Shown here one piece after another: positions 330-61,372 of a DNA stretch of 64,000 bases. The notes under the pieces were generated by a model. It was given only the letters and a program-made list of their open reading frames with translations. It made no database searches and was not told the DNA's origin. Every line of letters starts with the position of its first letter. The first letter of the stretch is position 1. The stretch spans positions 4,258,872 to 4,322,871 of the forward strand of contig NC_037602.1 in NCBI RefSeq assembly GCF_003073045.1, in the 5' to 3' direction. Origin of the DNA: Pomacea canaliculata. Lineage: Eukaryota; Mollusca; Gastropoda; Architaenioglossa; Ampullariidae. Made by a program: the position numbers and the translations under genes.

Positions 330-480
330 GACTGCACTTTCTTCACGGGCAAGAGATTCTCCGAGTGTTCGGCCGCTACCAGGCCTGGCTCCTGATGTTG
401 TGCCATACGACATGTCTGGCAAAGAGGGTCACACGGTTCGAATCCCAGTCACTCTGGTGGAAAATATGCCGGAACTCAAG
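330..480 (+). CDS. CIB2: CIB exon carrying two apparent 1-base deletions
   Basis: The exon follows a CAG acceptor and ends at AAG|GTGATA. It opens in one frame with DCTFFTGK, continues in a second frame with [10 protein letters not shown], and ends in a third with [16 protein letters not shown] through MPELK. All three pieces align in order with CIB2 (DCTFFNKKDIL...FYELAPNLVP). The length is 151 bases where 153 (51 codons) are expected. One base is missing near 350 and one near 383. Everything downstream is intact, so assembly error is the leading explanation, with a damaged allele as the alternative. Confidence 0.85.
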
Positions 481-2447
481 GTGATACATTATTCCTCATT
501 AAAAAATGTTTTGAATAAGCTACATAAGAATGAGTGTTAAGCATCGTGTTGTTGGGTTGTGATTCGGTAGGTTTGTAACAGAACAACACTCGAGGTTTTG
601 TTGTAAGGAAAGAGTCGCTAAAAAAGAGAGACTAGCAGAAATACTTTCCGGGAGGAAACTAATCTCGTATTAATATTTATCTTCTTGTTTACATTTTTCA
701 AGGAGAATCCATTCAGACAGCAGATCTGCAAAGTATTCACCGAAGGAGACCATGGACACATGACATTTGAGGAATTTCTGGACATGTTCAGTGTTTTCAG
801 CGAGGCGGCTCCTCGAGACATTAAAGCAGTCTACGCTTTCAAGATATATGGTAAGTAAAGCCCTCGTCATCACCAAACATAACACTAAGCAAACCTGGTC
901 ATAACATTGTTGCACCTGATATGATAAAACTTTGATAATGTCCGCAACCTGTTTCGGAGTAAAGATTGAGGACGTATGGGTGTAGTTTTAACAGATAACC
1001 TTCGATATTTCCCGATTAGATCGACCTAATAGTACAGATTGATAAGTTCGGTTGTTTTTGAAAGTGAGACATGTTATATTCAGTTGTTGTTTTCCATGAT
1101 AGAAAAACGAGCAACAGACTCATGTTCATAAACTAGCTTACATTTGATATCTTGTAACTTTAACTGATGTATTCATGCAAAAAATGAGAATTTCCTACTT
1201 CTGCTTGATTTTGTAATAAAGATTACATTTTCCAACTTCAATTTTTGTACTTGCATCTTCCTTAAAGACTGGGATGAAGATGGTTATTTGAACAAGGCTG
1301 ACCTTAAGGCTACATTGCTTAAACTCACTAAAGATGGTCTTGATGAAGAAGAAGTCCAATTTGTCATCGATAAGGTAAGTTTGAAACTTAACAAATGAAT
1401 GATCTTTTTAGTATCTTTTCTTTGTATCTTCTTGTAGAACATCGGGATAGGGAAGGTAACCACTACAAGGCTATTTTTTCACTCAGTCGGAAGACTGAGG
1501 AAACATAATGATCTTTTTATCTGTATCAAATTAACGACTAGTGTTTGTGAATAGTCGCAACTCGTGTGGCAAGATGTTCACATGCCTCTACATCTAGATT
1601 TTACAAAACATCAATTGTACTTATCAGTAAGACATGGATAATAATCGTGGACGAAGCACCGATATATACTTTGTTCACTGGCAAGTTCTGTGATTCTCAA
1701 ATTCACTCAGCTCTCACGAGACATCTCTGTTAACGCAGAATTAATGGCCTAATATTATTCAATAATACTCCTTTTTACAAAACCAAAATAAACAGTTATT
1801 TCCTTCAAGCTAACACTCATTCTCATCTTATAAACAACTCATAATCACGATTCCGGTCCACTGGTCTCTAGATAATAATGCACAAATATATAAACCCTAC
1901 ATAATTGTACATAATTGAATTGTCATTCATGCATGGCTAGATAATAATGCATAAAAGCAAAATTAGACGAAGTTACATAGGAGTGACTCAGACAATACCA
2001 GCATGTGCTGCTGTTGGTATGAAATGCAAACTTTAATTCTTTATTGTCCTTATCTTCAATAACATTATTTTAAATGCAAAATTATTATGTAATTCTGATG
2101 ATGACAAGACTAGATGACGAAAGTGATGATCTGTTGTACGATTGACAAGGTGTTGGAAGAGGCGGACCTGGACGACGATGGCATGTTGTCGTACATCGAA
2201 TTTGAACACGTGATCTCCAGGGCTCCAGATTTTCTGAAGTAATTCTAGTATTTTTCCCAAACAGAATAAAAAAAATTACCAGAAATGTTGCCTTTAAGTG
2301 CAAACACTTTCCCAAACTTTTTTGTAAAGAGTTCTACGAACAAGTTGTAGTAGTACACATTTGGGTGGAGAACTGAGGGGTGATTTGTAATTTCTCTTAC
2401 AATATTTACTCGACTTTTGTTTCAGCACTTTCCACATCAGGATATAA
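330..2447 (+). CDS. CIB2: Calcium and integrin-binding family protein (CIB2/CIB3-like), 3' part
   Basis: Small EF-hand protein of the CIB family. Known animal CIB2 acts in mechanotransduction complexes and photoreceptors and binds integrin tails. Visible coding exons: 330-480, 703-850, 1268-1374, 2150-2238 and 2426-2447; introns are GT-AG and phases join correctly after exon one. Diagnostic strings are MPELK then [26 protein letters not shown] and the C-terminal FLNTFHIRI before the stop. Two calcium loops are readable: [12 protein letters not shown] (Asp at position 12, as usual in this family's third EF-hand) and [12 protein letters not shown]. The N-terminal exon (MGNKQ-type in vertebrates) is not seen and should lie left of base 1. 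Exon 330-480 needs two single-base corrections to be read through. CIB2 and CIB3 cannot be separated from this sequence. Confidence 0.93.
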
Positions 2448-6860: not shown

Positions 6861-6867
6861 TCGGTTA

Positions 6868-7172: not shown

Positions 7173-9925
7173 TCATCCATTCTCTTTTGACATTGCCATC
7201 GGAACTGCAATGGCAATGGCCAGGAGGGCCAGCACGGTCAGCGTCAACAAAATAACCAGCAGCACCCGTCGTCGTCGAAGAGGACTTGAGGGGACCTGCA
7301 AAAAAGTCGGAGGTCAACATGGATTTTATAGAATTACTGGCACCACAACAAAAACAGTAGTATATAATTTTTCAGACAACATATTAGAAAGCATTACTTT
7401 ACAAGGTAGATAGTTGGGCAATAACTAGAGTGAGGGGATGGATTGTCATGAAAGTTCTCCTTAATGGGGATTTGTATTTGTGTGTGTGTGAGAGAGGGAG
7501 AGAAGGAGCGGTTATAAATGTGATACTGGATATGCATGAAGCCTGTCTGCGCTGATGACAATGGAAAAATGATGAAAATGTTTACAAAACTCACGTGCAG
7601 AGGCTCCTTCTGGCGACCGGCACTGGGATCAGGAGAGGTGCTTCGGCTTCTTCCATCTTGTGATCAATTTAAACACACACACACGCACACGCATAGACGC
7701 AATCAACATACACACAGTCACACAGATAAGTAAACACAAAGTAAGTTAAAACACACACACACACACACACTCACATACACACACATACACACAATATGCA
7801 TGCGAAGTCACACAGACAAGTAAAGTAAATGAACACACACACACACTCTCACCCACACACACTACCCTCTCTGCCTGTCACACACTGGGGTGGGACCATT
7901 GATGTATGTACATCGATTGCTACACAGACTCGTCATCTACGTTTTCCTCTAATAGACATCTCGACACCTACTCGGTGTGGTGAGACGGAAGCAGGCGACA
8001 TGGGTTTGATCGTGTCTGAAGGTCTACACGTGAGAGCGCATCACAGCACGAAGCACAGCTCTCCTCCAAGAAACTAATTTGTTTATATTTTTTTATTACT
8101 TATTCTTGTAGGGGTCCATGACGGGGTGTGGGGCGCAGGCTGGGCTGAAATCAATAGAAGTCAGCCTGCTACTGGGAACCAGCAATTCAGGAAACGCTTT
8201 CCCACCCGAGATTTTCCCATTATCTGAGAATGACGGTGCCAGAGCCAGCGCTGAGATAATGCCAGGCTGCTAGTGGCTTTCGGAAGTGAAAATAAGTGTT
8301 ATTGTGGGCCAGCACAAAAAGTTAAGCTTGGAGTTGAACTCATTTGGATTTTTTCTTTCTGGTTTTGCTGGCAAGCGAGAGCAAGGGAATGAAAATCAGT
8401 TTAAGAAACTGCCGGTCAAAAGACATGCCTGTGTAATGTTGCTGTTAAAATTTTAGGTGTCGTTCACATCGACTGATTTTTTTAAGATGTTAATTGGCAC
8501 AATGGTTTTTTTTCTCTTCTACACTGCTGCTTATTTTTCTGAGGTTTTTTTTTTCGATAGTCTACGAAACGATGTTTAAACTTGACCTTACTTCATATTT
8601 TTTTCCCCAGATCACTGTGTTGAACTCAGGACATGATGCCACTTCCCACAGCTCCAAAGAATACTCACCCATACCCCAAACTCGCTATCCGTTATGGAGA
8701 TCAATTCCACAACCATCATGTACAGAAAGAGATCAAACCGGGTATCCAGGGACACGCAACACCCCAATGGTCTCTGTATCCTTGACAACGCAAGCGTGTT
8801 CATGCACATCCCTGTGGTGAGTATTTTTTTTTTTTAATCTCTTATTGCACATGATGCTTGGGTTTGTTTGAAGAAAGGTGTTTAGCCCATGAACAAATGT
8901 TATTTATTTTGATATAAGGAAATATCAGGATGAACTAAGCTCAGCCAGCTGTAACCATCCATCCAAACATAGTCACGTGATCTCCTCACTTTGCTTCGTT
9001 GTCTCGATGATCTCCCATGGAGGGATGTCCACCGTGCTGCTGACATTGTACAGGATCTCCTGGATGTTGGCGGCTTCCCTGAGACACACGCAACAACCAC
9101 AGCTACATCCCTGAGCCTATACCTTGCCCATACATGCTAAAAAATGTGTCCTGAGATAGTGGTATTTGTTATGGATGTGATGGGGGAGGGGAGGATGACA
9201 TGACAAATAAACTTTCAGTAAAGTGCACGCAGCTTCAAACTATTTATTATTTCTAAAACTTTCTTTAAACATCCAACTTATGTTTATCATAAAATACTCC
9301 TCTAGGGGTCATAAAGTGCTGGCGAAGGTTCACATGTGTTAGATGACATTCGTTAGCTTCCTGATAAAGTTTTTGCCTGAATTAGCCAGCCTTATTATCA
9401 GTTCGTCAATGGAGCTTTCCAGAACTAAACACGAAGAACGAGGTGGACATGTCAAGGAGAACAAATAATACGGGTTATGTACTTGTAGATAGAAGTGTGT
9501 AGAGAGAGAGAAAGTAGAGGGTGCTGCGATGTTAACTACTCTAATTGTAAGCGACCGAGAGATGGAAGGCATTAGAAGAAGAAAGGAAGGTGTGGATGAG
9601 AAAGATCAGAGAAATAAGATTCAGTTAATTTGCAGAACAAGGAACCAATCAAGTTATTGAAAATCTCGATAGCTAGAGGAAAAGTGTTTCTCTGATTTTT
9701 TTTTTTTTTATCTATCTCGAACGATGCAATTCTTCCAAAAATCTCATCAGCTAATCGACGAGATGACAGTAAACAGTAATAACATTGATATATGGAATGT
9801 ATGATAAACAAAAGCATGAAAAAACGTATTTCCCATAGTCTATGAGAGAAAGACAGGTAAGTAGAAATACAAAAATAAGGAAGCATGTTTAACAACTCGT
9901 TTTTTCCGCTTCTTGCCCTTTCTAT

Positions 9926-9972
<47 letters not shown>

Positions 9973-12900
9973 ATAAATATATACACACACAGAGACATAA
10001 ATATATACATACGTGCACACACACACACGCCCACACATACATTCCTTCATTCACAACTTCCTAAGGACAAATTGTGAGGAGATTTTGTCTTGAAGAAGGA
10101 AGTGTGAACTGCAGTGTGACTATACTTCTTTATTCGCTCCAGTTCGTCCTTCTCCTTGGTTACGAACTTCTGATCGTCCGAGGACCGCCGCCTCCTGAAA
10201 GGCGAGTCCTTCGATGCACAGGTAGTGGCTCGAGACAGGATGCTGAGAGGGTCCGCGATGCCAGTATTGATGAAGAGGCAAGTTTCTGAAAAGTTCACCA
10301 GACCATAATGAATGAAAGTCTCCATTGTTATGATGACGATGACGATGACGACGACAATGCTGTTGCTGTTGCTGCTGATGATGAAGATGAGGATAAGGGT
10401 GAGGATGAGGGCGCGGATGAGGGTGAGGATGAGGGTGAGGGCGAAGGTGGCTGCTATTTAAACTGGTTTCATACTCGAATTTTTAAGTTTAACTCTGAAG
10501 AGATCATCTGAACATATTTTACTCTCGGCAGGGTCTTTAATACATCAATTAAAAGACATACATTTCTGTTTATAACTGCCGTGCACTTGTATCTTTGAGG
10601 CATCAGGCTGCTTCATGATGTCCTCTTCCTTCCATCTTCCTGTCTTCTTTGGTTGTAATCAGGACTGCCTATAGAAATGTCAGTATAATAGCTGGACACT
10701 ACAATTGAGATACCTCAAAGATATCACATATCGGAACACATTACAGAGCCAATCCCATAATCCCATTTTCAGTGCAAACATCCTCTTGATAAGAGAACAA
10801 TGGCTAAGACCTCGCTAAGACGAAAAGGCCGTTCCTCGTTCGTGAGGTATCTTCTGCTCTTCAGATCGGTCTTCTGTTGTCCTGCCTCGCTGGTCTTTGC
10901 TTTGTTTCCGTGCGATGTCGCTGACGTCGTTCGATTGGGAGGACGATCGGGTTTGTCGGTGATGATGGGGATCATTGGGTGTGGATTACTGGGCGCACTT
11001 TTGCGCTTAAGTATGTCTGCGGCAGTTTCCCTGGTTCTCAGGATGGCGGACCTGGAGCCTGGCTTAAACACACGCTGCAGTCTCTCTGCTCCAAACATCG
11101 TTAGCGAGATGGATTTTTAGTCCACGCGACCTTTCCAAGTGTATTTATACTTTAATTCAATGCTAGATGATGAGTAAGACGATGAGGATTGACGACTCTG
11201 GCAACAGAAACAATCTGAAGCTGTTCCAATATGCGGACTAAACTATAATGTACAGTGCTGTTGTCCTATTCTGCAATATGTATAAATCTCCTGTTATTGT
11301 TTTCCCATTATTGTTAGTTATATACCCCATATACCAATAATGCTGTTATTAGAGTTCATGCATGGAACTATACAGTGGATTATCTGTCACGATTGTCTTT
11401 ATACACAATGTTTTGTGAGATCCTCTGAAAATATTATTCCGATATTATTAAACGTGTCAACAGCGCTAGTACTAGCAAATCCAGGTGAAACGGAAACAAA
11501 TAATTTAAGAAAAAAAGTGTCCATGAACCAAAAACTGACTGGCTGCGCAAAAGGAAACTTTATTATAAAGAAAACCTTAACAACGGAAAACACTTCTAGG
11601 AGGAACAGGAGCATTTCTTCAGGATGAAAGAATACAAAAGCAGTCGTAAATGCCATTTACAAAACCAGGCAGTTTTATGGTAAATTTCCAGCAAAGGAAT
11701 AAATACGTTATGGCAAGTTTATTACACGCAATACAGTATAAATGCATTCCAGTAAATAACGAATCTGTTATGATCTGTAGACAGAAGATGCAATGAGGAC
11801 GAGGATGAAAAATGAATTGTGTGATCCATGGATGCATACAGCATAAAAATCAGAGCAATAAGCTGAAAAGTGCCATGCAAAATCATTAATGTTTACCCAA
11901 AATATTCGTTTTAAGCCACAACGGAAAAAAAAATAACGAAAGAAAATACGCAAAAATATATTCAAACAGCCAAGGAAGAAGGATAATTGACAGAACCAGT
12001 TTCTCAATCGATGCAGTAAAAGAAAGAGAGCTTTAGTTCCCACTATACCCAACACCTACAACCCCCTAACACCTCAAAATCATTTCTTAATCAACACTGG
12101 AACTAGAATTTCTGAAATGCTTTACGAATATTCAGATTTCTATAAAAAAATATTGCTTTCCCGCTATCTTTGTGTGAGGCAGTCTCACGATTTAATGTGA
12201 AGGAGAAGATGTTGCCGGAAAAGACGATTTGCCAACAAACCTGTGTGCAGGGGAAAGAGAGCCAGCAGAGACCGCACTTTCAGTAGTTGTATCTCGAAGA
12301 ACTCCAGACAGGCTGAGTAAAGACGGTAAAGCCGCTCCAACTCCCCTCGAGTGTCGCTGCTTTTTCTGGTGCTGATGTCATTCAAAAGGAAGGAAAGACG
12401 AAGAACAGTTTCGATTAAATGGACATTTTATATCTTTGGACGAGAATAGATACGAGAGAAGAAAAAAAAGAAAAGAAGAAGACTATTGCCCAGACAGCAA
12501 GATAGAGGTGGTTATCTAAAAAGGACGACAAAAAGATGTACGTATCAAATTCGTGGTTTGTACAGCGTGGGTGAGTACGTACGTGCGCGCGCACCTGTGT
12601 GAATGATATGCTTACATACTATTGTGCGTTAATATCTATGTATAAATACCTTTATAAACAGATAACCTCATATTATATACATTTATTAAATACAAGTTTT
12701 ACCTTTTCAACAACGGAAGTAAGATAATTTTGTTTTCGTGCGCCAAAGCGCATGCTCGGTCTCGACTCTGGCGCAGTTCGTCCCGCAGACGGTCGGAGTC
12801 GGAGACGCCTCCCAGACCCATGGACAGGTTGCAGAACAAAGCTATCTCTTTGCTCAGCGCATAAGCCAGCTGGAAAAAAAATTTTATTACATTTTGTCTC

Positions 12901-26480: not shown

Positions 26481-29400
26481 TCAGTGCTTGGCAATGTATA
26501 ATGTGTAGTATGCCCAAGGTTCAGGCATATATAAAGGCCCTGGATACTTCTGTCGTAAGGTGGAATCGTTCCAGAGCCATGCCACCCAAACCTGTGTCAG
26601 TGCAAGGGTCAGGGTGAATGTCAGAAAAAGGAAGGAACCGTTGGTGTCCGGCCACAGAGACTTCGTCTTCACTTGCCAGCCTCCGTAGACAAGCATGGCA
26701 GCGTAGACCGCGAGGAAGAGCGGGTAAATCTGTCCTTCGGTCACCAAATACCTGCAAATAGTTAAATCATCATCGTTGTCGTCCTGCTCCTTCTCATCAT
26801 CATCGTAATCCTGATCATCAATGTCTTTGTCATTAATTTCAAAGGATGATAAAGATGTTGAAGTAGGAGAACCCCAAAAGGTGTTATGTGAAGGAAATAA
26901 ATGGTTACAGAGAATTGACTTACCAATAGTATACTGCACTGAAAATAAGTAAGAGCCACCATGCAGGCTTATACCGGGTGTCAGCCTGTCCCGCTGGTTG
27001 GAAACACCCCGTGTAGTAAAGAAGGAGGGACAGAAAAAACGGAACGTACCTGCCAGGTAAACAAATGAAATACTAAAGCATTTACAAAAGCCATTTAACA
27101 ACCACGCAAAAAATCAACTGAACTCTCACATCAAATAACATCGTGACTATTTCTTTTCTCAACGAGAGAAAAATTGTTACCTCGTCCCCCTGATATCAAA
27201 CAGTTCACGAATGAAATTCGTTTGTTCGTTCTTTGAGATACATCGTACATGAAGTACATCATATATGATTATTCAAAACGAAAAGTCTTGCAGAACAGGG
27301 GAGTAGATAAAGCTTGCTGCCTTCAGGAACGAAAGAAAGGAAGCAGGCAAAGAATCAAATAGTCCGTAAAAGTTTTATAATAGCTTACCACATGTAATGA
27401 CCGATTTCTTCGTCATAAATATAGAGTAATTCAAAAGACTTCACCTGCAAAGTAAACATATAAACACAAGTCTTTCAGTGTAAAGAAGAATCTTGTTAAA
27501 AGTATGTTATGTATATGATGTCTTCCAAGCAATGTTCAAGCCAAGGTGTTTTCCCCTCAGTACCCGAGTATGGCCTTACGAGACTGGGTAATTTAATTAT
27601 TATTCTATGTTATCTGTGAATGAGGCAATCCTCTACATTTCAGATTTCAGTCTACTATAATTAAATACCAGAAGCCGTTGGGCCAACAAGGAACCAGATC
27701 GCAGTTTTTCGCGAATTGCTTGCCTCTGTGGCACTAATTATGAAAATTCCGCACTTTTTGACCCCTTTTGGCAGTAATGCAAAAGGGGAAAATATTCTGT
27801 AAAATACAAGAAAGGAAGCTACTATTACCTTTTTCTACATGCATCATTCAGTGTGCGTGAGGTTATAGGCGGCGTCCTAGTGAGAATCAATCGTGTGATG
27901 TGATAAAGCTCTTGGCCAGGCACTGCGAATCCGCTTCCGAGTGCGAACTAGCGGAGCAGTGGAGAAAGCGCTTCACTGTTGCATACTTTATTAGAGATGT
28001 AGAGAACCGGTGGAGAAAGTACTCCCTAGAGCTGTATACTTTGTCAGGGATGTAGAGAACCAGTTGAGAAAGTACTTCGCAAAGCTGTATACTTTATAGC
28101 AGGTGTGTGCACTCGTACGCGCATGCGTATTCGCACTGTGCGCTTGTTCTTGATGAAGTCCAGGTACTACAGGTACTACAATGCCGGCCATTTTATCGTT
28201 TAGTGCCAACTGATTTTCGCAAGATCAGTGTCATCACAATCACAAACATTGTGGGTGAGCGTAGTTTCTTTCTTTATTACTGTGCAACTTTGTTACTGTG
28301 TGAGTAAGGCACTTTACTATTGTAGTGCCAAGCACAGTAGTCATGCACATGAAGCTAACATTATTGCTGGAAGCTTCAGCCGACAGATAATGCGTGAAAA
28401 CTATATGGCTGCATTTTTGGTTTTCCTATTGTCTTAAAAGAGAGAACAGCTTTTTAACCCCAAACGGGAAGCAAAGTGGTCATACCATATCACAGTGGTA
28501 ATGCGTGGAGAGAAAACATAATTGTCATCAGAAAATCGCTAACCACTGGCAGCAAAAAAAAAAACAAAAAAAAAACAAAAACAAATTAATAAAATAAATA
28601 TAAAAATAACTTGCTAGCGTTCGACACGATTTTGAGAGAGAAGTCCATCGCTTTGCTGATCCCCCTACTAGTCCCAGTCTTGTTTGTTTGTCTGTCCTTC
28701 CGTCTGTCTATAAAATTCTATGCTTTATCGTCAAGAACCATGGAGCTCCTACCAGTTCAGGTGGACGCAGCTGTTTCATCAGTGGATTCTCGGCGACAGA
28801 GAGGTGGTTCAGATAGCCGAAATGTTGCAGGCGGTGGTTGACAGAGTCGCCGACCAGGTGAATACTAGCCCCCATGACAAAGGTGATGACAGACAGGTAA
28901 GTCACCGTGCTAGACAGGTTTCGCTTGCTTCGCTCCTGTAACTGTTTCAAAATTGACGACATTGTCCCAAGCTCAACAGATTGAAAAAATACTTCAATCT
29001 GAATTTCAGCTTCATTGAATCCTTTTCCTGTTATCATTCTACATCTAATATAGAACATCGTTATATCTAAACTATACAGTAAAATATATCAAGCAATACA
29101 GAAAACTCTTTATCTCATTTGATTAAGGCAAGGGCTGACATCCCACAATTTTAGCGAAGGTGAAATTATTTTCAGAATCATCAGCCATGACGACAGCCAT
29201 ATTATTCAATGCAGATGAACGGGAATGAAGAGAAATATAAATCACTTCAGGCAATCAGCGAGTAAACAGATTTTTACGATTATTGGACAAGCCTTTGAAA
29301 GATACTGTTGTGGCGAATGTATCACCGACAACTCAGTTTTCGCCAATACAGCATCGTTTATGTGTACAAACACTGTGCTCACCCACCTTTTGAACACAGG

Positions 29401-37242: not shown

Positions 37243-40200
37243 CTATTGCACGAGGCAACTGTTATGCATCTGACAACAACTGCACCGTTGATTAAGGGGT
37301 CGTGGTGGTATAAGATCAAGATCTTCATCATCAGGTTCAAGGTCAAGATCATAGCCATCTTTTATCAGCTGTTCAGTAATTTCCTTCTGAGCTGCTCGTG
37401 GCAAACGTGGCAGATCAAATTCATCTTCTTCACTAGAAAAAAAAAAAATCGTTTTATTAAGGAACTTCTAATATAGAATACATAAAGTAAATGAACTGAA
37501 TTTTAGAAAACAGATTGAGTACACAGTCATGGTGTCAAAAGACGAAACTATATAAATTGGTGTTCTTCATAAATCTCAATGATGAAATAAAAAATAAAAT
37601 GCTCTCTGCAACAAGGTAAGAACACAAACCTGGAGCCTACATACTGAACACAGAGACATGCAAACAAACTCTAAACTACAGTGTTTCCCTTCACCTTAGA
37701 GTGTAACATGAAAGCAATTAATCTGGGCATTAATTCTTGCCTTTCATCTGACATAATGGTGACTAATGGCTGCTGGTCTGGTGAGAAAGGTAAAACATCT
37801 TTGTCTTTCACCCTATTGGTACTTGCAGGAACTTGCAGTCTGCGAAAGCAGAAAAATATTCTGACAAACAAAATCCCCAGCTCAGGATTATTGGTTAACT
37901 TTAAACACATGATCCAAAATGAACCCCCTGTATCTTTTAAACTACAACAGATACAGCTACAAAATTTGACAGGGTTGTTCAGGGGTATGTAAACTATTTT
38001 TAGGTTGTAAATCTATTATAAAAATGTAATCAAAATGTACTGGAAGGGTAAAGAGATAAAAATGAAATTCAAAATAAAGTCATTGCATGCATTCACTAAT
38101 TTATTCAATATTATAACGAGTCTAAATCCCATTATTGAATATATAAGAAGTTAGAATTATAGTTATACAGCTATAAAAATGTTTGGTTCACATAATTTTT
38201 AAAAGCAATGTACAAGTCTTTTAACTTTAAGGTAGGCCCTTCAACCAAAGCTGATCATGTGTGCAAAATCATAAACTCAGGACAAACAATAACAGGATTA
38301 TTTATCACAGTTCTATAGATCATGTAAGAACAGCTACATTTCTGGATTGTAGTAGATTGAATAATTATAAACCATCTACGTTTCAAATAGGAGCACATCA
38401 CGACTAGAATGATGCAAACCATACAGTGAAGTCTACAGCAGGCAATTCGTTTAAAAATCACTTTCGGTCTGACAACAAGTGAATATGTTTGTTAAATAAT
38501 GCATGGCTTCTACACAAATGTGTAAAACCTAGCTATTGCCCAAAAGTTATATAAGGTCTTCTTTTATAGTGATATGTGACTACCTGCTTATGATAGCTAC
38601 AAAAAAATTAAGCTTTTGTCTGGTCTACCTGTGCTGCACAATGCATGGCTGGGAAATAAACCTAATCCTAATGTGCTATGGAATACATTTCTCAGATTAA
38701 AAAAACAGTTATTTGCAAAAACTGCAATTATGGTGGTTATGATTGATCTTTTCTGCAAGACCAATGTCATTTACCGAGGACAAGCTTGTGTCTTGAGAAA
38801 ACACTGTCCACATCGACAACCTTAAACAAATCTATGGCACAGGCCAGCATCATCAGCCATGCTGAAATTTTGTGGTGCAACTTCAATGGTACTCAGCTTT
38901 GAATGGCTGGTGAGAGGTGTCATCACAAGTAATTGCAAAGTTGTAAGTACTGATTTGTTCATCGAAAAACAAACTTTCCAAACTTTCTGAAATGCGAATG
39001 TTATTTTCAACATATTTTTTGTGTGAACGTGTGTCAAAGTTATTTTTTGAGAATTGTTCTCCTGAGCCCTAGAACAAAGATTATAAAAAATATACCCCCA
39101 CTCCAAAAAAAGCATAATCTTTTTATCTTATGTGATTCTCAATTCTTGATCCATATAATCGGTGCACTGCATGGAACTTTCCGGTCATATTATTTTTTGC
39201 TTAGTCAAAAATGGCTGCCATAGGAAAGCAAGCGAGTGTCTAAAGTAGTTGTTTTTGTCTTCAGTACACAGAACAATAAGTAAATCCCCAAAATAAAATA
39301 CAATGTACAACAGTGGGAATCCAATCTTTAATTTCATGTATTTTTCTCACAAAGAAATAAGAGGTATAATGTACCAAAAGACTGTTTGAAAACACCATAT
39401 TTTGGGGTGTTTTGTGCCTTTCCGTGTCCGCCACTAGGAAACTGCTAATAGGTCATACCTTTTTAAACATCATGACTAAGGAAGTAGTGATATCCCAATG
39501 TCTTATCTGATAAGCATCTGTACTTATGTATTTTTGATAGCCACAGACTAATTCACGAACAGCAAAAAGTTGTCTCAGTATACCTGCTTCTTGAAAGAAT
39601 GTTGCCCTTTTTGGGCTGTTGGTCAATTACTGTCTTTGATTTTCGTGCAAGGTCTCTTTGCCTTTCTGTGGAGTATAGAAAGAAATATTTCTGTAAAAGC
39701 ATGAAAAAATATCAGTAACTATTCTTGCTAAGCATTACATCACTGTATATAGAAGACTAATACAGTCGGACCTCGATAAGTCGACCTTCCCCAAGTCGAA
39801 AACCTCCCTATATCGAATTAACTGTTAGTTTCTGGCCAAATACCTGCGCCTATTATGCCATTTTCCCAAACTCAAAAACTCCGTAAGTCAAATTTTTTTT
39901 CAGGTCCCTTTCAGTTCGACTTAATGAGGTCCGACTGTATTATGTTAGAAATCTCCGTTTCCTACAAAAATTTAGATTACCCCATGACTGAAATCCTATT
40001 TTTGAATTTCTTGCACTTTAGAGGGCACTCACAAGGAATATGCTTTATCTTCTTTTATTTTGGCTTGCTTTTATTTTCTGAATGCACACAAAACAAAAAA
40101 ATAATAACAAATATGAGTGTGGCTTATGATGCTGGCTATGCAAAAATTTTAATGCAATATTTTCCCAAATTGTCTTTTGTCCATGACAGTATCAACCGAA

Positions 40201-43206: not shown

Positions 43207-46200
43207 TCACAGAGCTCTTCGTCCTGCTGCATTTAGCTTCCTCTCAACCAAGAGAATTGCACATGCAAGAATCAATCCTCCTAAAGCAAAGTACAAGGGA
43301 CCCTGCACTGTCGTCATGGTTACGCTAGATGGAGAAGCTGCTCTCTTGCCCTCCGAACTTTCACTCTGCCACCAACGTTTCTGCAGGTAGATTAACACGC
43401 CTGCTTCATCTAGCTTCATTATTCTGTGTACAGAAGAATATGAATTCTAGTGTATAGCTTGGCATGTAATTATACTGTTTTAAAAAAATCAAATAATGAG
43501 AATTTACGACTGAAACTCTCACGCACGAGAAATGTTATATATTTTTCCTCTAGTTTTAACATGGAATCAGACATTTATAAAATGAACTGGGAATGAGAAA
43601 GTAAACGTTTAGCATATCCTTGTTCCTACAATGGTGTTTGCCACATTCACAAGCGAGAAAATTAATTATGGCGAAGGGTAGATGTGTACATAGGCCAGAA
43701 ACATTGAGAAAATATATTTAAAATATACTATTATCCATACTCTCGACATATATATTTTAAAATCATTCAAAACTAACGTTCATGTCATCTAGAAAGAAGG
43801 AAAGGAAGAAAGAAGAATCTGATGTAAAGAGAATAGCGATCTTCCTCTATGATTGTGCGGTGAGCCGGAACTCACATGTCCCCAATTTTTTGCTTGAGGC
43901 ATGAGTTTTTCTGGACGAACACATGAAAGGAGGACATGCCAGCCACGTAGAGCTGTAGAAATTTGATATCGCCCCTCGTAAAAGTTTCTTCGTTTCCCAT
44001 CGTGCTTTCGTCCCCGACAAATGCGTAGTGGCCTGCGAGAACCTTTTGTAGGTGGACATGCTGGTGAGGACTAAGGACGTCCGGGTCCTCTTTTTCAAAC
44101 GCTGTCAACTTCTTGTAAAGGGTTTGGAATGTGATGTTTTTTGATGTCTTGATCAGAAGGAAAATGCATACATGCATTATTTAAAGGAAATTGTCATATT
44201 TAGGACAGCCGTTATACAATTCCCGAGATTATAAAATTTAAGCTTAAAGTTAGTCCTTTGAGAAATTTAATATCAAGGAGTTTAAGCCTGATTTTAAGAA
44301 AACTTGCTATTACATTGCAGTAAACTTATGAGAAACATGATAATGAAAGGCAGGGCAATGTACCCGAAATTGGAAGCTCGTGATGGAGCCTCCAATTATC
44401 CCCCATCGGTAGTCATTCCGCGCGGCTAGCTCGTCAAGTGATGTGAAGGGAAGCGGAGCCGGTCCTGATACTAGTAGCGAGGTAAACTTGCTCGTGAATG
44501 ATGAGGTGAGCACAAGAACCATGAGACACCAGCATGCAACTAAGAAACGCGCCAGTCTGAACGTCCATCTGGTGGACATAGCTGAAGAATGAAAGTTTTA
44601 TATGAAAACTTTATTGAAGCTGCCAAGCTGGAAAATGATGAATGTTTATCAGCAGAAACAAACAGGTTTTCACAACACTCTTTCAATAGTACCCCCGGAT
44701 AGAAATTAAAAAAACGTAAATCTTTACATGAATATCTAACAGTCTGATCTTCGCAAAAGAATTGGCTGACATAGATGTTGCATAGTCACTATTAATTCCA
44801 CTGATTATTCGCACAGCAGACACCTGTGCAAAGGCACGGATACAAATACATATTTTACAGACACATATAGTTCCCACCTTTCTTACACACACATATACAC
44901 AGATGTGTGCATATTCACTATTCAGTTTCGTTTACCTTGATTGAAAAGCGATCCAAACAGAAACTGTGCGATTTCAAGAACAGACAGGTCTGCGGCACAA
45001 CCATTTAACCAGTTATATGAACGGTGCACAATGACGAAGATGAGGGTGTAAAATACAAACGTGCCGAGTGTGTAAACGTACACCTGCCGAGAAATAGATG
45101 TCAACATTTAATGATGGTGTTTGTTGGACAATGTGCTTTTGCATTGACAACCACCCGTTCTTTACAAAGAGTTTATGATAGGCAAGGAAACAACACTTGT
45201 TCCTTTATCATAGGATACAAAGATAACTTTTGATCATGTCATCTATGTGTTTGAATTCTGTCTGAGAAAAACTGATGCTGGGAGAAGGAAAAAGAAACGA
45301 GAGAAACGAAACTAAAGCTTACTTCCCAGGTAAATGGGGAAAGGTAGGCAATCCATCCATGATCGTGGGTGTCCTCTTGTCTGAAGAAAACACCTTCGGA
45401 AGTAGACTGAAAAGAGGAAGTCCAGTCCGTAATGTTCGCACGTTGTTCACTTGGGGAGAGTGGACCTATGGCCAGGTCGATTTCCTGCATGGAGAAAACA
45501 AAGTCCCGAGGCTCTCGCAAAGTTGTAGTAGTAACTAAAAACGACAAAAAAAACAAAACTATGTCAGTTGTCAAATTAACATAGCTTGAAAAATGTATGC
45601 TGGGAAAAAGCAAGACCGTTTGGTGTGTTTTATTCAGGAGTGAAACAGTATGGTCTGTTTAAATGTAGAGTGAGAATGTTAAATATGGAGGAAGAAGCGT
45701 GTGGCATAATATTGTAGATGCTTCTTGAACTAATGAATTTTAGGGGCAAGTTTGAAAGATTGTATTCTTAGCTGATGGCGAGTAACCTACGGGAGTGAGC
45801 TCCGTCAACTATGTTTTGCTGAAAGGGAAAATACGTGTTTACAAAGATTTTTGTTCTTATTCTGGAAACGGAAGGGATGTGAATATTTGCAGAAATACGA
45901 AACGCCTACTTAAAGTTCAGCGAGTTAGAAGGTCAAACAAGTAAGAAGCAGCAGACCCTTCAAAAAACCTGACAAAAGACAATAAGAACTCGTACCTTTC
46001 TTTCAAAAAGCCCCATAATTCCTGTCCAATGGTCATTTTTTATATCTCCCCAATCATTGTCTACGGGTAAAACCAGTTCGTAACTGAAAAACCAAAAAGG
46101 TTATTGAAAACACTGAGTAGGTGTTTGGAGACATATATGTATACATAATGATGGGTATAATGAAAGTACCGAGTAGCCGTTCAAGTTTGGTAGCAGATAA

Positions 46201-49087
46201 GACAAATTGACTGGTTCAATGTTGCTTTCTGCACTATTTTATAAGTAAAAGGGACTCTCCTATTGAATAATTTGTCATTCTACCTGTGAGAAAATAATCA
46301 CATTTGTTTAACAACAGTTTGTCTCATTAAGCCATTTATATAGCGTTTGGAAGCAGTTCTGAAGCGAGGAAGTAGTTTTGGGTACGATCTGTATAAAAAT
46401 TGAAATAATCAAAATAAACAAGCCAAAAAATGTTAGAGGCAGAATATAAAATACATTGGAAAAAAGTGCTAACCTGAAATTGAGTTTCTCTGAGAAAATG
46501 TCAAGGAGGTCAATACAATATCCGATATAGGTGTTGTTTCCTTGTCGAGTTTCTTTCTTGACAAGTGGAGACCACTGAAAGACCCACTAAAATTCTTTAT
46601 TATACACATATTACAATATATATATAGTCTGTACATATCTTGCAAATTTTAACAACGCATTTTCTCTTGTGAATATTTTAACAGGAATAAAACTGTAACT
46701 ACCTATAAATGTTTCTGGCAGCTTCATAGTTTGAAGGACCAGAATGAATGGTTGCGTTTTTTGCAAATATCGGATCATATAGGTGATATAAACCTAATCA
46801 GTAAATCTCAGCATCCAAAACCCATCCATTAATTAATCATCTGCTAGCAAAGTTCGCTATTCGCACCTGCGATCAACAAGCGCCGGTAACAGTGAACCAT
46901 GTACAAATACACAGGAGGACCTGTCTATTATACCAGGCATATGATTTCGTCTCACCACTGGTCTGTAGGTGTAATCCAGTAAATACCTACATGTGAGCGT
47001 GTGGAAGAACAAGACAGACACAATTTCTCTTGGGTTATTAACTGGAGTGGAAATAACACGTAGATGTCAGCCCATGCCTATACATAAGCCTATATCTGAT
47101 TATTTATCTGTAACCTTTATAATAATAAAACAGAAATTTTTGTCGCAACATAAGCCGTAAACAAACTGTCACCAAAATTATTCTCATGCAGGATTTGTTT
47201 CCCAATACCTCTTTTGTGCCAACTTTCAGTACAGCGCCATTCAGTCCATAATTTACATTGGGGTAGAGAGTATTAGTTGTTTTCGTAGAGATGTCAGGTG
47301 CGACAGAAGAAAATTGACGTCCTCCGGGTGTCCACAATAAAGTTTTGAGCATGCCGACAGTGGTCTGAAATCACAAGCACTCAAAATACCCTCACTGGAT
47401 GCATGTTAATGTTAAATACCTTCCGTACCTCTAATTATACTGTCTAATGTGGAACTATGACAAATTTTGCATCTGTTGAACTATTTTCATGTCGGCAAAT
47501 CAAGCGTGACTACCGTATATCTTCAAGATGTCAATTTTATCTCTTGGACATGCTTTGATTTCCATTTCACCATCGATTCTGAGACAGTTGTAAATATATT
47601 TTTAGAAAAAAAACTTACAAATGTGTGATGACAGCAAAAATGGTCGTGAACTTGAGGCTTTTAATGTATTACAAGTTTCTAATGTCACTTCAAAAAATTA
47701 TACCACGGATCTGACTTTAAAATGAGGTATAACTACAAGGCATATTTTTTAAAGGCTCTCTCTGATTAAATAATGGTCGTAGAAGCTTGTAATACAGTAA
47801 AATATTTCACGAACAATGAATTATTTACTATATGTAATAAACGAGGAATGTTGCCTTAACGGATGATTATGATTATTTTGTTTCTTACTAACCTCAGTAC
47901 TGGGCACAAACACCGCAAAATTGTTGATTTGAAGCTGTCTGATGTCGATGATGTCCAGGAGGTCAAAGTCAAGCAGACATAGCCAAAATGCCTCCCACAC
48001 GATGGATGAAAAAGGACCAATCAGATCAGGGATCTCTCGCATCTGCGGAGGAAAACAACACGTACTGATTTATTAGAACCACAAAGTCAAGTTCTTGTAA
48101 ACTCGAGAGTTTGCGCTGACATGCATTTAAAGATAACAAGCATGTCCTAATTCATGCAAGTACATGTTTTCAAACACGTTTTTCCTTAAATTCAGCATAA
48201 TTTCTCTTCTCACCACGTCCAGCGCAGTTTTCTGATGGTCTTTGGTGCCGAACAGAAGAAAGTGCTGTGAGATCAAGGACTTGGAGAGGACATCGTTGAA
48301 GAAAGCTGGAATTCTGCTGTATATGTTTAGTTTGGTAGGGTAGTATTCTTGGGTATGTTCCAAGAAGAGGTCCAGCATCTCATCTTGTTACACATAGAGA
48401 CAACACATATTGAGCTTACTTGAAAACAAAGGTTCGGGAAGAGTTCTGACGCGAGAAATACATTTAACAGACTAGGCCCTGCGTTTCTCCTCCTCCTCAT
48501 CATCATCATCTTCATCATCATCAATTAAAAATCATCATCAATCAACAATGAATCAATAATCATCAATTAGCAATAATCATCAATCATGATCACATCATTA
48601 TTATTATTATTTTTTTTTTTGCTTAAACAATGCTTGGAGCTTGAAAACATACTTTGGTCCGAGACCACCACAATCTCTTTCCATTGGAGAAGCTGAACAA
48701 TTTTCACCATGTACTCTGAAAAAAGATGAATTACTTTACAAATATACATTTATAAACGCCCATCGTTGAATGTTATAAAAAGATTTGATGTGTAGTAGCA
48801 TTTTCATTCAGTACTTTTTAGCTTTTATAGCTGAAACCCGAGTCATTTTTTAACTTAAAGCTTAGTCTCTGACATGATTTTTTTAAGCTAAACAATCTGA
48901 CGATCGATAAGGTCAAAGGACATCCTTACCGACTACCTCACTGCCTTCAGAGAAGAGGATCGGTTTTTCATTTTGCTTTCATAAACTTGTTATGTGCTCC
49001 AGGTATGTTTGAAACGTTAGAGCTGTTTGCTTCTTTGGTCAGGACGCACGTGATCACAGGAGTTATGACAAGGAGCAAACTTCCCAT
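43207..49087 (-). CDS. Ionotropic glutamate-receptor-like receptor (IR / delta-like)
   Basis: Ligand-gated cation channel of the iGluR superfamily, placed in the plasma membrane. Exons in gene order: 49087-48930, 48715-48653, 48383-48214, 48042-47893, 47364-47209, 46574-46474, 46083-45996, 45484-45323, 45083-44936, 44581-44364, 44147-43876, 43423-43207; about 633 residues. The N-terminus has a signal peptide (MGSLLLVITPVITCVLT) and a short ATD-like region. S1 carries YIGYCIDLLDI, WTGIMGLFE and EIDLAIGPLSPSEQR, whose Arg is the usual carboxylate binder. M1 is TFVFYTLIFVIV, M2 ends GSLFNQ, and M3 has TSSFTSKFTSLL in place of SYTANLAAFL. S2 carries IIGGSITSF and YAFVGDEST, and M4 is YFALGGLILACAILLV. 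Introns are GT-AG in phase, but exon 1 needs one base removed. A chemosensory or synaptic role is inference. Confidence 0.94.
48487..48523. repeat. (TCC)n(ATC)n triplet repeat
   Basis: CTC then CAT triplets just upstream of receptor exon 48383-48214 in gene direction, with more ATCATC fragments to about 48590. Confidence 0.8.
48930..49087 (-). CDS. Receptor first exon with signal peptide and apparent 1-base insertion
   Basis: ATG at 49087-49085 opens a hydrophobic leader followed by KEANSSNVSN, a run of N-glycosylation-type sites. The frame then meets TGA in AAAGCAAAATGAAAAACC. Dropping one A from the AAAA run gives KANEKPILFSEGSEVV, which joins the next exon in phase (G|AG, then YMVKIVQLL) and leaves 52 codons plus one base. 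The alternative is a different upstream first exon. Confidence 0.6.
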
Positions 49088-54697: not shown

Positions 54698-54703
54698 TTT
54701 ATT
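54698..54703 (-). terminator. Candidate poly(A) signal of HCN
   Basis: TTTATT on the plus strand is AATAAA in gene sense, about 425 bases past the HCN stop. Confidence 0.4.
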
Positions 54704-55126: not shown

Positions 55127-56445
55127 TCAGACATTGCTATCAGTTTTTCTTTTGTCCGAGAGTCTTTTCTCGGTACAAGGGCTGTCACCGACTGTGACTA
55201 CCGAGGCTGTGTTAGAGAATGTAACTCGTGGCTCAGTTCGTGTTCTCTCCCCTTGCTTAGCAGTGGTGACTGGCCCTGGAGTTGAGGGGCTTGAGGTCGG
55301 CGTCGAAAGTGTTGGGGCGGAGGTGGATTTCGGGGTGGAGACTGATGGGGGACCAAAGCCCGCTGCTTCGCTCATCAGGCTCACCGAGGTGGAGGTGCCG
55401 GCAGAGGTTGAGGGCGTAATGGTTGAGGTTGCCGTTGGGGGCACCACCGCCGCACAAGCCGTCACCACCGGAAGCAGCGCCGGCTGGTCGCGCTTGATGC
55501 CCATTTCGTTGGTGACGCTCTCCACCAGAATCTCCGCTACGCTTTTCGGACGGTCACCTGACCCTCTTCCCCGCAAGAAGGAACCAGACTTCTTGGCAGG
55601 GGATGAGGGAACTGAGAAGGTTCCGGTTTCCTTCGAGTCTCTGGTGCTCTGGTCGGGCTCGCCGGGAACAGTCAAAAAACGCATCCCAGAGTCGAAGGAG
55701 CCTGAAGACGGATCGTCCTGGCTTAAAGCCTTTGTGTCTCGCAGCCTCCTAGGCCTCGTTTCCTTCTGGTCGAAAGCGGACCGGAAGATTCTGCTGCTCA
55801 GAAAACTGGCTCTCCTCTTCTCGTCTGGCCGGTGCTCTTGTGGATGGCTGCCTTCTTCTTCGATGCTGTCCTGTCGAGGAGTCGCGGAAATTCCATAGGC
55901 GTCACCCACGCTCCCTGATCTCTTCCTCTCGGGGAAATTAGGAACGCGTAGACCGAAGAGGTTGGAGCCAGAGTACACCTTCGGCAACTTGGTCCAGATG
56001 TGACTGTGCTTATGGTCATCGAGGTCTATGAGGTCTCGGTCCTTGAGGTTCTCCTTTGACCTCGACTTCTTTTCTTCCGAAATCTTATGAAGGCGCGACG
56101 AGAAGTCAAACTTGAACGGCCTCTTCTTCTGCTTGCTTCCGTCAGAACTTTCATCAGAGTCTCGATCCTCGTCTTCGCTGGCTGAAGTCGGTATTGGTGT
56201 CGACTCCATGACGATCTCGTTGACCATCTTCTGGTCCTCCTCTAAGTCGGCCCTGCTGGACACGATGCTCGGGTTCTTTCCGATCTTGGTTAGACGCTCC
56301 GCAGCAACCGACTCCATAGTTCTGCGCATGAGCGGATAGCGCTCGAGGACGTCGTTGAAGTGTTCGACGGAGAGCGAGTAAAGATTGACATACGTCTCCG
56401 CCCTGACGCTGGCCACACGTCGAGCGTTCGTCAGCAAGCAGATTT
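55127..56445 (-). CDS. HCN: HCN terminal exon: end of binding domain and disordered tail
   Basis: It encodes 438 residues and a TGA. The first ~60 finish the binding domain ([35 protein letters not shown]). The rest is a Ser/Thr/Pro-rich, charged tail of about 380 residues, more GC-rich than the flanks. Basic phospho-site patterns occur at KRRAS and KRSGS. The protein ends TDSNV. A 260-codon plus-strand frame at 55116-55898 is its antisense shadow. Confidence 0.95.
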
Positions 56446-59400
56446 CTACAAAACAGATTAAACGAGTTTGTTTTAAAGCTGTTATATCCATGCAGTTTTC
56501 CTTTATAGACATTTTGTGCTATTACATAACTAAGCATTAAATTAATCTGCATTGTTTTTTCTGTACTATTTGAACAGGATTAGTGAGATGCAAGAATGTG
56601 AATATACAACGCAAAAAGGGATGCATAAAACTTGACAGCTAAGAAAACTAGCATTAAAATGCACAAAAAATTAGATGAAAATTAATACCTAATTTTTTTT
56701 AGTTTTATTACAAAATAATTAACAATTCAGAGTACTTTTGATTTATTCGATATTACCAGTTTTGTTAAAACACCTACAACGGTACTATATCAAAAACATT
56801 CTCAAATTTCGCTTATTCTGAGTATCGAAGAGCTGATCAGTTATTGTCTTTACTGATAAAATACACAAATTTTTAAATACAGTAGTTCTCAAAAAACTAC
56901 TTGCAGTGGGCGAGAACATGCTGAACATTCATAAGATACCATAATCGGAAAATGGCTAAAAAGATTGTCATCAAATTTCAGGGAAATGCTTAAAGAAATT
57001 CACTACAAAATTGTTTTGAAATTAAGCACAGAGTAATTACATTGAGTTTTCCTCCAAATATGCAATCGTTATTGCAAAGGAGGCACTCAAGAATATTAGC
57101 AGATCTCCTCACTTCACCTCTCTAAAAGACTAAGTTATTATTATTCCTTGATTTTCATCTTACCTCCGAAGTACGAGCCATCTGAAAGGCTAGTGGCCAC
57201 CTCTCCATCAGCTGTGATTATGTCCACGATGCCTTCCTGAATGAAGTACATCTGGGTACCCATCGTGCCTTCTCTTATGATGTAGTCACCGGGCTGGTAC
57301 ACCTCGAATCTCAGTTTGCTCACCACTTCAGACACAAACGATGGATCTGCGTTTGTGAAGAACGGCACAGAGGCCACGAGAGACCGGCAGTTGTGGTTAA
57401 CCACTTCCTGGAACGAGAAAGCATCCAGCGGTGACCAAGGAAAACAGAGTCCTTAAGAAGCATCGGGGAGTCTCTGGATGGAAGAAAGATCAAATTATCC
57501 GAATAAAAAGAAATCGAATATGTCCTCAGAAAGCCCCTCGCCAAACTCTCCAGGAATCTAAAGATCTGGCGGCTGCAGTGGAGGATTCTGCCATAGGCGC
57601 TTCCCAGGCTCATCAAGACTGGTCAGTATCGTTTGATGTCATGATGCACCTATAATATGGTTAATTTGGCCGACCTGCTGCTAATAGAGACCTTTGGCAG
57701 CATGGCGGCCTTTCTAAAAGAGAAGACTGTCTGGATCGGATGATGTAAATTGGATGCATTCCAAATGTTGACATGGGCATGATTCACGTCCCCTGTGTGC
57801 ATTTTATTAGTCGCAGAATGACATAAAATAATGAAATATAGGATGTCAAGAAAATTATCAGAAAAAATTTATCCTGCTCTGAGAGGTGATAGGAATATCA
57901 TTTAACTGTATTCAGGAAGTGGCGCCAAATATAATTATGTATTTATGGGATAATAAGAAATGAGAACTATAAAAATATTAGGACGTAGTAATTTTAGCCT
58001 ATGGGGAAAAATTCACTGAATGCATGTTATGAGAAAAACTTCTCATACTGTTATAGGGTTGCAACCATCGTTTATGTTCAAAGCACCAGCAAAATTGAAC
58101 TTTTTCCACATTTTTTATCCTTCAAAACATAAACTTCAAACTGGCCAGTCTCGCAGCCATCGAGAAGCACTGGGAGATTATAGAACCAGTAAATTCATTC
58201 TTAAAAAAAACAGAAACACTCGCATTATGTGAAATCAACGAATGAGCGATTCTAGATTTGGGTAAAATGATCGGTTACTTGAAGGGGTGGCTATGCGACC
58301 GTAAACGATAAAACCTGTTCTGAAAGGGGACATTATCGAAGAATTTTTCAGGAAATCGCATTTAAAAGCAGGAGAGCCAACGCACATGACGCAGACACTC
58401 GTTGAGTTCGGAAAGGATGGTGAACTCGTCAAACATTTTGCCCTGGTAACGATGTTCGTAATAGTCAGTGATGCGCTGCCTCAGACTCCGGGGTAACTTC
58501 CGGTAGATCATGTACTCCTCCACCTGTTTGAACTGGAAGTAGAAAGAAACTAGTCAACAGTAATGTTCACAAATATGCTCTTTCTCTCTCTTCAGCCTTT
58601 CTTTGTTCTTCAGTCTATTAATATGGATATCAACCAATTGTTTTCCTAATCAAGTCTAATGAACCTCTCTACGAATTTTTATTATTGAAATGTGTACTAC
58701 TCCTTCTGAGATATATATGTATATAAAGAAAATATTTTTAAAAAGAAAAAAAAAACAAGAAAAATCTATTATAAATCGTGTTCAATTTTAGACATTCTCT
58801 TTTCTTGCCGTCCCAATGTCAACAATAGGGTCTCTAACAGAAAATGGAGCGAGAAAATGGCCGTCAAGCTAAGAGGACTTAACCTGTTGCATGACAAACC
58901 TTTTCGTTGTAGAGTCGTCGTGAGGTGTCGAAGGACTGAATGAGTGTGGTGGTGTGAGCTAAAAATAGCGCATAGCAGGTGGCGCCACTGAGCATGCTGA
59001 GGATGGTGAGCCAGGTGTCGGACATGTTTTGTGGCGGGAAGCGACCGTAACCGATGCACAGCATGTGGGACAACGCCTTGAACAGTGCCCACGTGTACTG
59101 CTCCGCCCAGTGGGCATCCTGCGCACACAACGAAAGAGTTAACGTGGACATTCAGGTAGGTGTAGACAAAAACAAAACAAATAACCCCACCAAAAATCTC
59201 AAAACATTCTTCTGAAATGGCGGCAAGATAGAGAGTAGTAGAGCTATCGAAAATAATGAACCTGCGATGATAGTCAGTCAAACAAGGCATGCACAAAAAA
59301 GGACAAAAATGCCTAAGATAAAAAAAAATATATTTTAAACTGTATTGTGGGTGACAGAAGTTCAACAAACTGTTCTTCTCGGTGGCAAAGGTGCCCTGCA

Positions 59401-61372
59401 ATTTTAACAAAATCCAGCAGTCTGCGCTCACCACGGTCTGACCTATGACAGGGCTCTAGGAACACGACCAACGGTCTGAAGGCATATTGTGATTTTTCCA
59501 TGTTCAGTGACGGTAGAAAACAATGACAAGATATTTGTCTATGAGAATCCACAGAATATGTAAAACCCGCTGTGCTTCCGCCTTCCTTTGTGTCGTTGCA
59601 GTTTCTGATAATATTCCTTCAAAATATATGCAATAAACCTCTGTCTATTTTACTCAATTTTCTTCCACGATATTATCTAACAAGAAAAAACAAAAATGCA
59701 GTATTGAATTCAAACTTGTTTGTAGAAAGAAGACAGTTTTCACGTCAGAGTGCTTGAAATTTAAAAATGTCCAGATAGTGAGACCGTTTTTGCCCAAGGC
59801 TGGTGATGTGCTTTGCTCAGATAAAGGTTTTTGTCCGTTTCGGAGCCTGCACAAAAGTTTCTCGAATTTGTCGTACTTGACATCAACAAAAGACCCGTTT
59901 CTGTATGCTTCATGCTGAAGTGCTGTTGACTGGAACAAATGAGACTGGCGCCATCTGGAGCTGAACAATTTTAAGTCCCCAAAACTAAGTTAGCCTCTTC
60001 GAAGCTGATGTAAGAGCTGCTATCTGCAAGACGTGTTTATATTATCACGTCCCCATAGATATACACGCCTTGTCAATCTTAGTTTGCTGGAGGAAAATCA
60101 AACAAATAAACAGACCTGTAGATAAATAAAAACACAAGCAAGGTCTTAAAAAAGTAGGATCCATGAACAACGGGCTTTGTCTTGTAAAAAATTTTCAAGA
60201 ACGTTTATCAAACTAAAGTACACATTACCAAAAGAAATTACTTTCATTTAACTGTGCAGGAAAGGAGTTCACTTAAGTACTTGCAATACACTGAAGGCTT
60301 TATGGTCGCCTTTTGACTCATTAATCCGAAGTTTTACTGATTCGCAGGGTTACAAGCAGCGTCCAGTTAAAAATCCGTGTAAACCTACCGACACATGTGG
60401 GAATGGAAATCAATCCTCCCAACTCACTCCCAACTCGTGTTTTTGCTGCGAGTTCAGCCCTGCGTTCAAGGACAGTAAAAGTGTGTGTTTCTAGATTCAC
60501 CATTGTTAAGATCAACAATAGAGGGTCTGGTGTGAGAGCAGCGGCTGTAAAGCAGATGCCGCCATCTGCACGCTGCAGGGGGAGAGAATCAGGCTTGAAG
60601 CTGGAGTAATAACAAAACCTTACCGACAACAACACTTAGGCTGAGATTGGTGGAAGTAGGGAGACATTGAGACTATTGGAATGAATTTGAATGTTTCTCT
60701 TAACAATGTTATGGTTTCAGGCAAATTTTGTTAAAAGGAAGTGCGTGTACTTTTATTTACCGATTTTTTGTTTATCGTTTATATATTATTCTTTTACTTC
60801 CGGATATTATTGTGGATGAAATATTTTTAAAATTAACGTTCTTCAGACTTAGTTTGTGTAAAGACTACAATTTGCAAAATGCCATACTTTGCTAAGATCC
60901 CATGAAAAAGTATGAAGTCTATGCCTAATAGCAGCTTGCAGTTTCTCAAACCATGAACTTATACTACTGGACTGCTGGCAGACTTCTAAAACGAGGCAGC
61001 TGTGCACAAAGCTTCCGGTTTACTCACATTTCAGATTAACTACTAAAACGAGGCATATTTGTACAAAGCTTCCGGTTCAGTCGCATTCATTTTTTTTTTT
61101 TTAGGCTCGCCGAGACTAACAGCTGAGAACTTCGCAAGAGGCTAAGCGTTGGTCTTGGCAGACGGACAGCAGTCCACCTACACACGTCCATGCTCAAACA
61201 GAACCACGTGACTATCACTGACCTGCAACTCTTCGATCGCCACCCAGCTCGCCTTGGGGAAGTCCTGCAGCATGGGGACGAGAAACTGCAGGCAGCCGTT
61301 CCAGTGGCCCAGCAGGAACATGAGGCAAATGAGGTTGAAGATGCGCATGAATTTGCCGGCGATGGCTAGGAA
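55127..61372 (-). CDS. HCN: HCN (Ih) hyperpolarization-activated cyclic-nucleotide-gated channel, 3' part
   Basis: Tetrameric Na+/K+ channel of the plasma membrane, opened by hyperpolarization and tuned by cAMP; it carries pacemaker current in neurons and muscle. Five exons in gene order: 61372-61223 (S5), 59118-58900 (pore, S6), 58532-58386 (C-linker), 57407-57164 (cyclic-nucleotide-binding domain) and 56445-55127 (end of the domain, long tail). All phases agree: 150, 219, 147, 244 and 1319 bases. The filter CIGYG, the C-linker [14 protein letters not shown] and the domain motif [20 protein letters not shown] identify HCN rather than CNG or EAG channels, and the wording matches protostome Ih channels. 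The N-terminus and S1-S4 voltage sensor are missing because they lie beyond 64000. Confidence 0.97.
57164..57407 (-). CDS. HCN: HCN exon: first part of the cyclic-nucleotide-binding domain
   Basis: Begins [17 protein letters not shown] and continues [17 protein letters not shown] and [12 protein letters not shown]. It ends SDGSYFG plus one base, joining G|AA as the Glu of the phosphate-binding cassette. Confidence 0.96.
58386..58532 (-). CDS. HCN: HCN exon: C-linker
   Basis: Forty-nine codons: [14 protein letters not shown], then [20 protein letters not shown] and [11 protein letters not shown]. The donor is CAT|GTGCGT, which fits the phase-0 acceptor of the next exon. Confidence 0.95.
58900..59118 (-). 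CDS. HCN: HCN exon: pore helix, selectivity filter, S6
   Basis: Seventy-three codons (219 bases). It contains [20 protein letters not shown], then [20 protein letters not shown] (S6), and ends [12 protein letters not shown]. Confidence 0.97.
59119..61222 (-). other. HCN intron
   Basis: The 2.1-kb intron holds no recognised exon. An imperfect direct duplication of about 49 bases lies at 60984-61088, beside the S5 exon. Confidence 0.7.
60984..61088. repeat. Imperfect direct duplication, two copies
   Basis: CTAAAACGAGGCA...ACAAAGCTTCCGGTT occurs at about 60986-61020 and 61043-61077, spaced about 57 bases apart, with differences inside each copy. Confidence 0.8.
61223..61372 (-). CDS. HCN: HCN exon: S5 helix and outer pore
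   Basis: Fifty codons, phase 0 at both ends. It begins [15 protein letters not shown] (S5), continues [20 protein letters not shown] and ends SWVAIEELQ at a GTCAGT donor. Confidence 0.95.

Follow-up and report, generated by a model that had tools for sequence, protein, structure and literature searches.

Genes neighbouring on a Pomacea canaliculata contig and on human 15q probably share an ancestral linkage group

This report concerns a window of 64,000 nucleotides from the genome of the snail Pomacea canaliculata (G000:C13:4258872-4322871), in which genes of the CIB, R7BP/R9AP, CLN6, FAM219, ionotropic glutamate receptor (iGluR) and HCN families lie in a row. Four of these families also have members on human chromosome 15q, and we suggest that the two groupings probably descend from a single linkage group of early animals. 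The assembly, G000, holds 440,159,624 bases in 24 contigs, and contig C13, at 23,556,918 bases, makes up 5.35% of them.

Results

Genes of the window

The window is animal DNA carrying spliced genes. A first-pass annotation, made from the letters of the stretch, had claimed six genes, all of which were found at the places it gave:

310..2447, + strand: CIB2/3-like calcium- and integrin-binding gene; exons 385-480, 703-850, 1268-1374, 2150-2238 and 2426-2447
8990..12869, - strand: putative R7BP/R9AP-type RGS anchor gene; exons 12703-12869, 12241-12365, about 10126-10260 and 8990-9078
26490..31962, - strand: CLN6; PF15156 places 31816-31962, 30629-30736, 28747-28953, 26905-27051 and 26490-26753
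about 37243..37432, - strand: FAM219, last exon; PF15260, 2.4e-14
43210..46586, - strand: iGluR, putatively divergent; PF00060, 6.2e-10, and a solved-structure match
55130..61370, - strand: HCN channel, S5 to C-terminus; PF00027, and solved HCN4 structure, 8e-141

Six-frame Pfam scans of the - strand, with stops read as X, covered the window apart from 53.9-54.0 kb, and those of the + strand covered it apart from roughly 25.7-32.0, 43.2-49.0 and 55.0-61.4 kb; above the curated cut-off they returned CLN6, FAM219, iGluR and HCN, and no further gene. The CIB exons fall under the cut-off singly and pass it once joined. Rfam and tRNA searches of the window gave no matches, and in a codon-usage scan the noise was too high for calling added genes.

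Spliced together, the five CIB exons give 153 residues with the C-terminus TFHIRI, and the joined protein carries an EF-hand_7 pair (Pfam, 4.6e-14). Its best solved structures are CIB2 (2.9e-51) and CIB3 (4e-50), CIB1 being weaker at 2.1e-36. Judged from its sequence, by the EF-hand pair, the TFHIRI end and a likeness to CIB2/3 that exceeds the one to CIB1, the gene is of the CIB2/CIB3 type. The first exon as read (310-480, + strand) shows CIB2-like letters in three successive frames, so that the frame breaks twice in a span of some 60 bases, at about 335-390; the later exons are open. These breaks may represent an assembly error or gene decay.

The HCN gene has an HCN-type GYG pore, a C-linker and a cyclic nucleotide-binding domain (CNBD), the part from S5 to the CNBD being supported by the HCN4 structure match. 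Exons for S1-S4 and the N-terminus lie outside the window, in flank pieces L006 and L011, where they were read by eye; on this reading the gene reaches about C13:4382870 and spans ~69 kb.

For CLN6, the five places listed, each above cut-off, cover PF15156 model positions 4-135 and 152-279, and a short additional exon was read by eye near 27390-27445. These five places were everything that a genome search for CLN6 returned. A 12-base tandem unit, in about 12 mismatch-free copies (31324-31469), sits between two located CLN6 exons. The FAM219 exon matches positions 75-124 of the 124 in the PF15260 model; earlier exons and the N-terminal part were not found in the window.

The R7BP/R9AP-type gene comprises at least four exons, the start of the one at about 10126-10260 being approximate; first and last exons were not found at the 8990..12869 locus, the last being the one expected to encode any C-terminal membrane anchor, as a transmembrane segment or lipidated cysteines, and Pfam gave no family above cut-off for the protein. 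Against provisional human fragments its N-terminal part scores 142 for R9AP and 100 for R7BP, and none of 2000 shuffles reached either score. This likeness to the human fragments, the only sequences with which the window protein was compared, points to a gene of the R7BP/R9AP type. It would then be an invertebrate member of the R7-RGS anchor family, like RSBP-1, the one homologue that R7BP and R9AP have in C. elegans (PMC3357403). A study from Lamb and Hunt's group, whose usable R9AP outgroup consisted of a hemichordate and an echinoderm only, reported three R9AP genes without evidence of a paralogon, and considered their expansion in the two rounds (2R) of genome duplication unlikely, though possible (PMC5795056).

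Human positions and the chance of co-location

CIB2 (15q25.1, 78.1 Mb) lies about 10 Mb from CLN6 (15q23, 68.2 Mb) (PMC9863005), and HCN4 and FAM219B fall within a block of ~3 Mb in 15q22-25 (PMC9936777). The CHRNA5/A3/B4 cluster is also on human chromosome 15 (a paper on nicotinic receptors). RGS7BP is at 5q12.3 (PMC7261755) and RGS9BP at 19q13.11 (PMC7582808). On the positions available, four of the six window families therefore have members in 15q22-q25 (CLN6, CIB2, HCN4 and FAM219B), and R7BP/R9AP and iGluR do not; we know of no iGluR gene in that region. Other members of these families lie at 5p12 (HCN1), 19p13.3 (HCN2), 1q22 (HCN3), 19p13.11 (CIB3) and 9p13 (FAM219A). The human positions in the first-pass annotation were borne out where they could be checked, namely for the four genes on 15q, for RGS7BP on 5 and for RGS9BP on 19. 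Its grouping of RGS9BP with HCN2 and CIB3 on chromosome 19 is right as to the chromosome of RGS9BP but mixes the arms, RGS9BP being at 19q13.11 and the other two on 19p.

We estimated how often such a grouping would arise by chance with a rough model of uniform placement and assumed family sizes (HCN 4, CIB 4, FAM219 2). In it HCN, CIB and FAM219 each have a member no more than 10 Mb from CLN6 with a probability of 8.5e-6, or 4.1e-5 at 1.7-fold gene density, figures that flatter the pattern because human chromosome 15 was noticed after the fact. For at least three of the five other families, iGluR included, the range is 2.5e-4 to 1.2e-3, and for HCN, CIB and FAM219 members merely sharing the chromosome of CLN6 the value is 7.8e-4. 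A literature search found no printed microsynteny or duplication link for these genes, which is weak evidence of absence from print, most subscription papers lying outside the search. The hagfish genome paper and PMC6170504 likewise yielded nothing on them, and PMC10203365 lists no cytobands for them.

Further families in the same genome

Seven families with assumed human positions at 15q or its partner regions, together with three controls, were fixed before any results were seen; results were obtained for six of the seven and for one control, a small sample. Genome searches placed SCAMP at C13:14.70 Mb, TLE/Groucho at C13:5.84 Mb, snurportin at C13:0.93 Mb and ETFA at C13:11.05 Mb, scattered across 0.9-14.7 Mb of the contig. 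Four of the five single-place families are thus on C13, for which the binomial probability is 3.9e-5, given the contig's share of the bases; ADPGK was left out of this figure because it matched in two places. The genome contains two ADP-dependent glucokinase-type genes, one each on C8 and C13. The control with a result, CLN5, lies on C3 and thus off C13 (one of one, a single gene).

Flanking genes and other features

For the flanks the analysis consisted of by-eye reading of open frames longer than 62 to 95 residues, a procedure that would miss genes with short exons. On the - strand at about 4.20-4.2286 Mb of C13 (L015-L017) lies a HERC1-type gene, which starts ~30 kb before the window and continues, as read by eye, into L016-L017. 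Its N-terminal exon shares 110 identities in 222 columns with a provisional N-terminus of human HERC1, a value that none of 500 shuffles reached; its RCC1 piece matches the solved structure of HERC2 (7.6e-12) better than that of HERC1 (3.6e-8). Human HERC1 is at 15q22.31, and the gene fits the 15q pattern.

Between the HERC1-type and CIB genes, directly upstream of the latter, a Shaw-type voltage-gated potassium (Kv) channel gene runs on the + strand from L013 1049-1450 to L012 about 1660 and ends ~8 kb before the window; its pieces, joined by eye, match the KCNC1 structure (3.2e-63). To our knowledge the KCNC genes lie outside the human 15q pattern. The first-pass annotation had named the iGluR as the sole gene without a partner, which does not hold once this neighbour is counted. 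By-eye reading of open frames recognised no gene in flank pieces L007-L010, L014 and L018-L021, nor in the 40 kb beyond HCN.

The iGluR gene was recognised from M4 and M3, near 43.3 and 44.5 kb, and from a piece of the ligand-binding domain near 46.5 kb, with possible N-terminal exons, read by eye, as far as 48.4 kb. PF00060 is above cut-off, and PF10613 matched below it in both scans. The M3 region (44313-44597, - strand) reads TSSFTSKFTSLL. The receptor may be divergent, because this differs from SYTANLAAF, which we take to be the canonical M3 motif. Elsewhere in the window, at 15383-15498, there is a tandem array of 29 mismatch-free copies of TGAG.

Discussion

We consider it probable, at roughly 0.82, that nothing sets the window apart from the rest of C13, and that this chromosome has for the most part come down from a single linkage group of ancestral animals while its genes changed their order. 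What was observed is the gene content, the four human positions in print and the enrichment on C13 in a small sample; shared ancestral linkage is thus well supported by a small test, and the linkage group that gave rise to the vertebrate 15q/major histocompatibility complex (MHC) paralogon is probably also the main source of C13. That ancestral group would have become C13 in the snail and, quadrupled by vertebrate genome duplication, would have given rise to regions of human 15q, 19p, 1q, 5 and 9, which would form part of this paralogon and would correspond to CLGC in the amphioxus scheme. On this view CIB2, CLN6, FAM219 and HCN adjoin one another in the snail and share 15q in human because neither set left the chromosomes derived from that single one, and their close packing here would require no special constraint.

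The likeness to the 15q/MHC paralogon lies in the HCN, CIB2/3, FAM219 and CLN6 families, which have 15q members, and the first three of which also occur on its partner chromosomes. GGA28 and GGAZ correspond to human 19p and 5. A paralogon of human chromosomes 6, 1, 9, 5, 15 and 19 has been described (PMC1215479), in work that treats the CYP19 region of 15q and not the window genes; in contrast to that paralogon, the genes here are together on one contig, and the Pfam scans made of the window returned no MHC gene. In the amphioxus scheme GGA28 descends from CLGC and GGAZ from CLGC mixed with CLGL, and in scallop the groups are reported to persist as units, except that CLGB is divided into three (PMC7269912). 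That the window genes belong to CLGC is something we infer.

Several results weigh against descent from one linkage group. Among the further families SIN3, whose human location is 15q24/19p13, lies on C2, and the stronger match of ADPGK is at C8:13.48 Mb, with a second copy at C13:22.5 Mb. No results were obtained for COX5A or for two of the three controls (MTHFD1 and METTL1), and for the test families, the control and HERC1 the human locations are assumed ones. Both the iGluR and the Shaw-type Kv gene beside the CIB gene are without a partner in the pattern. RGS9BP, too, supports little, because it lies on 19q (PMC7582808) and no evidence of a paralogon was found for the R9AP genes (PMC5795056).

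The first-pass annotation had proposed an ancestral linkage kept tight in this genome and later spread out in vertebrates. Its shared linkage agrees with the position of four of five further families on C13; the tight keeping and later spread go beyond what was observed. A rival reading is a true microsyntenic block, in which HERC1, CIB2, the R7BP-type gene, CLN6, FAM219 and HCN were adjacent in the bilaterian ancestor, were held together by shared regulatory DNA and were later dispersed in vertebrates. Four paralogon genes within 64 kb and a fifth, the HERC1-type gene, 30 kb beyond them speak for such a block, as do the human counterparts of four window genes lying within about 10 Mb. Against this, a Kv gene and an iGluR break the row, the comparison is of this genome with human only, and four random points would fall within 10 of the ~37 Mb of 15q in ~6% of cases (by hand arithmetic, with the 37 Mb assumed). 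The spread of four other families assigned to the paralogon over 0.9-14.7 Mb of C13 means, moreover, that some genes would be packed locally even if no block existed. Given the scatter of those families along C13, we rejected the view that microsynteny is proven for this row, and regard such a block as unlikely; a special tight arrangement is unproven because a conserved chromosome with scrambled order would give the same picture. Its fullest version, an ancestral contiguous HERC1-CIB2-R7BP-type-CLN6-FAM219-HCN block near-intact here in ~185 kb through interlocked regulatory DNA, with vertebrate 15q as its exploded remnant, seems about as unlikely.

That unrelated genes should by chance share human chromosome 15 is very improbable: SIN3 and one ADPGK copy do lie off C13, and for two of the window's six families we know of no member on 15q, but the rough chance figures stand against it, at 8.5e-6 to 4.1e-5 where the window genes are concerned and 3.9e-5 in the test of further families. 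We give still less credence to two independent origins of the grouping, one in this lineage and one in vertebrates, through selection for co-location. The families have no obvious common function, no point in its favour emerged from this analysis, and the conservation of whole-chromosome linkage between scallop and amphioxus (PMC7269912) argues against it.

Descent of C13 from one ancestral linkage group is a kind of pattern already well known, and the window is a new instance of a known phenomenon. It adds, independently and on the scale of a contig, a case in which an animal chromosome has seemingly kept its gene set since before the vertebrate duplications, and would place CLN6, FAM219 and the R7BP-type gene on that ancestral linkage unit. 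If the tight block were present in other phyla also, this would suggest a regulatory reason for these neighbours to have persisted for more than half a billion years.

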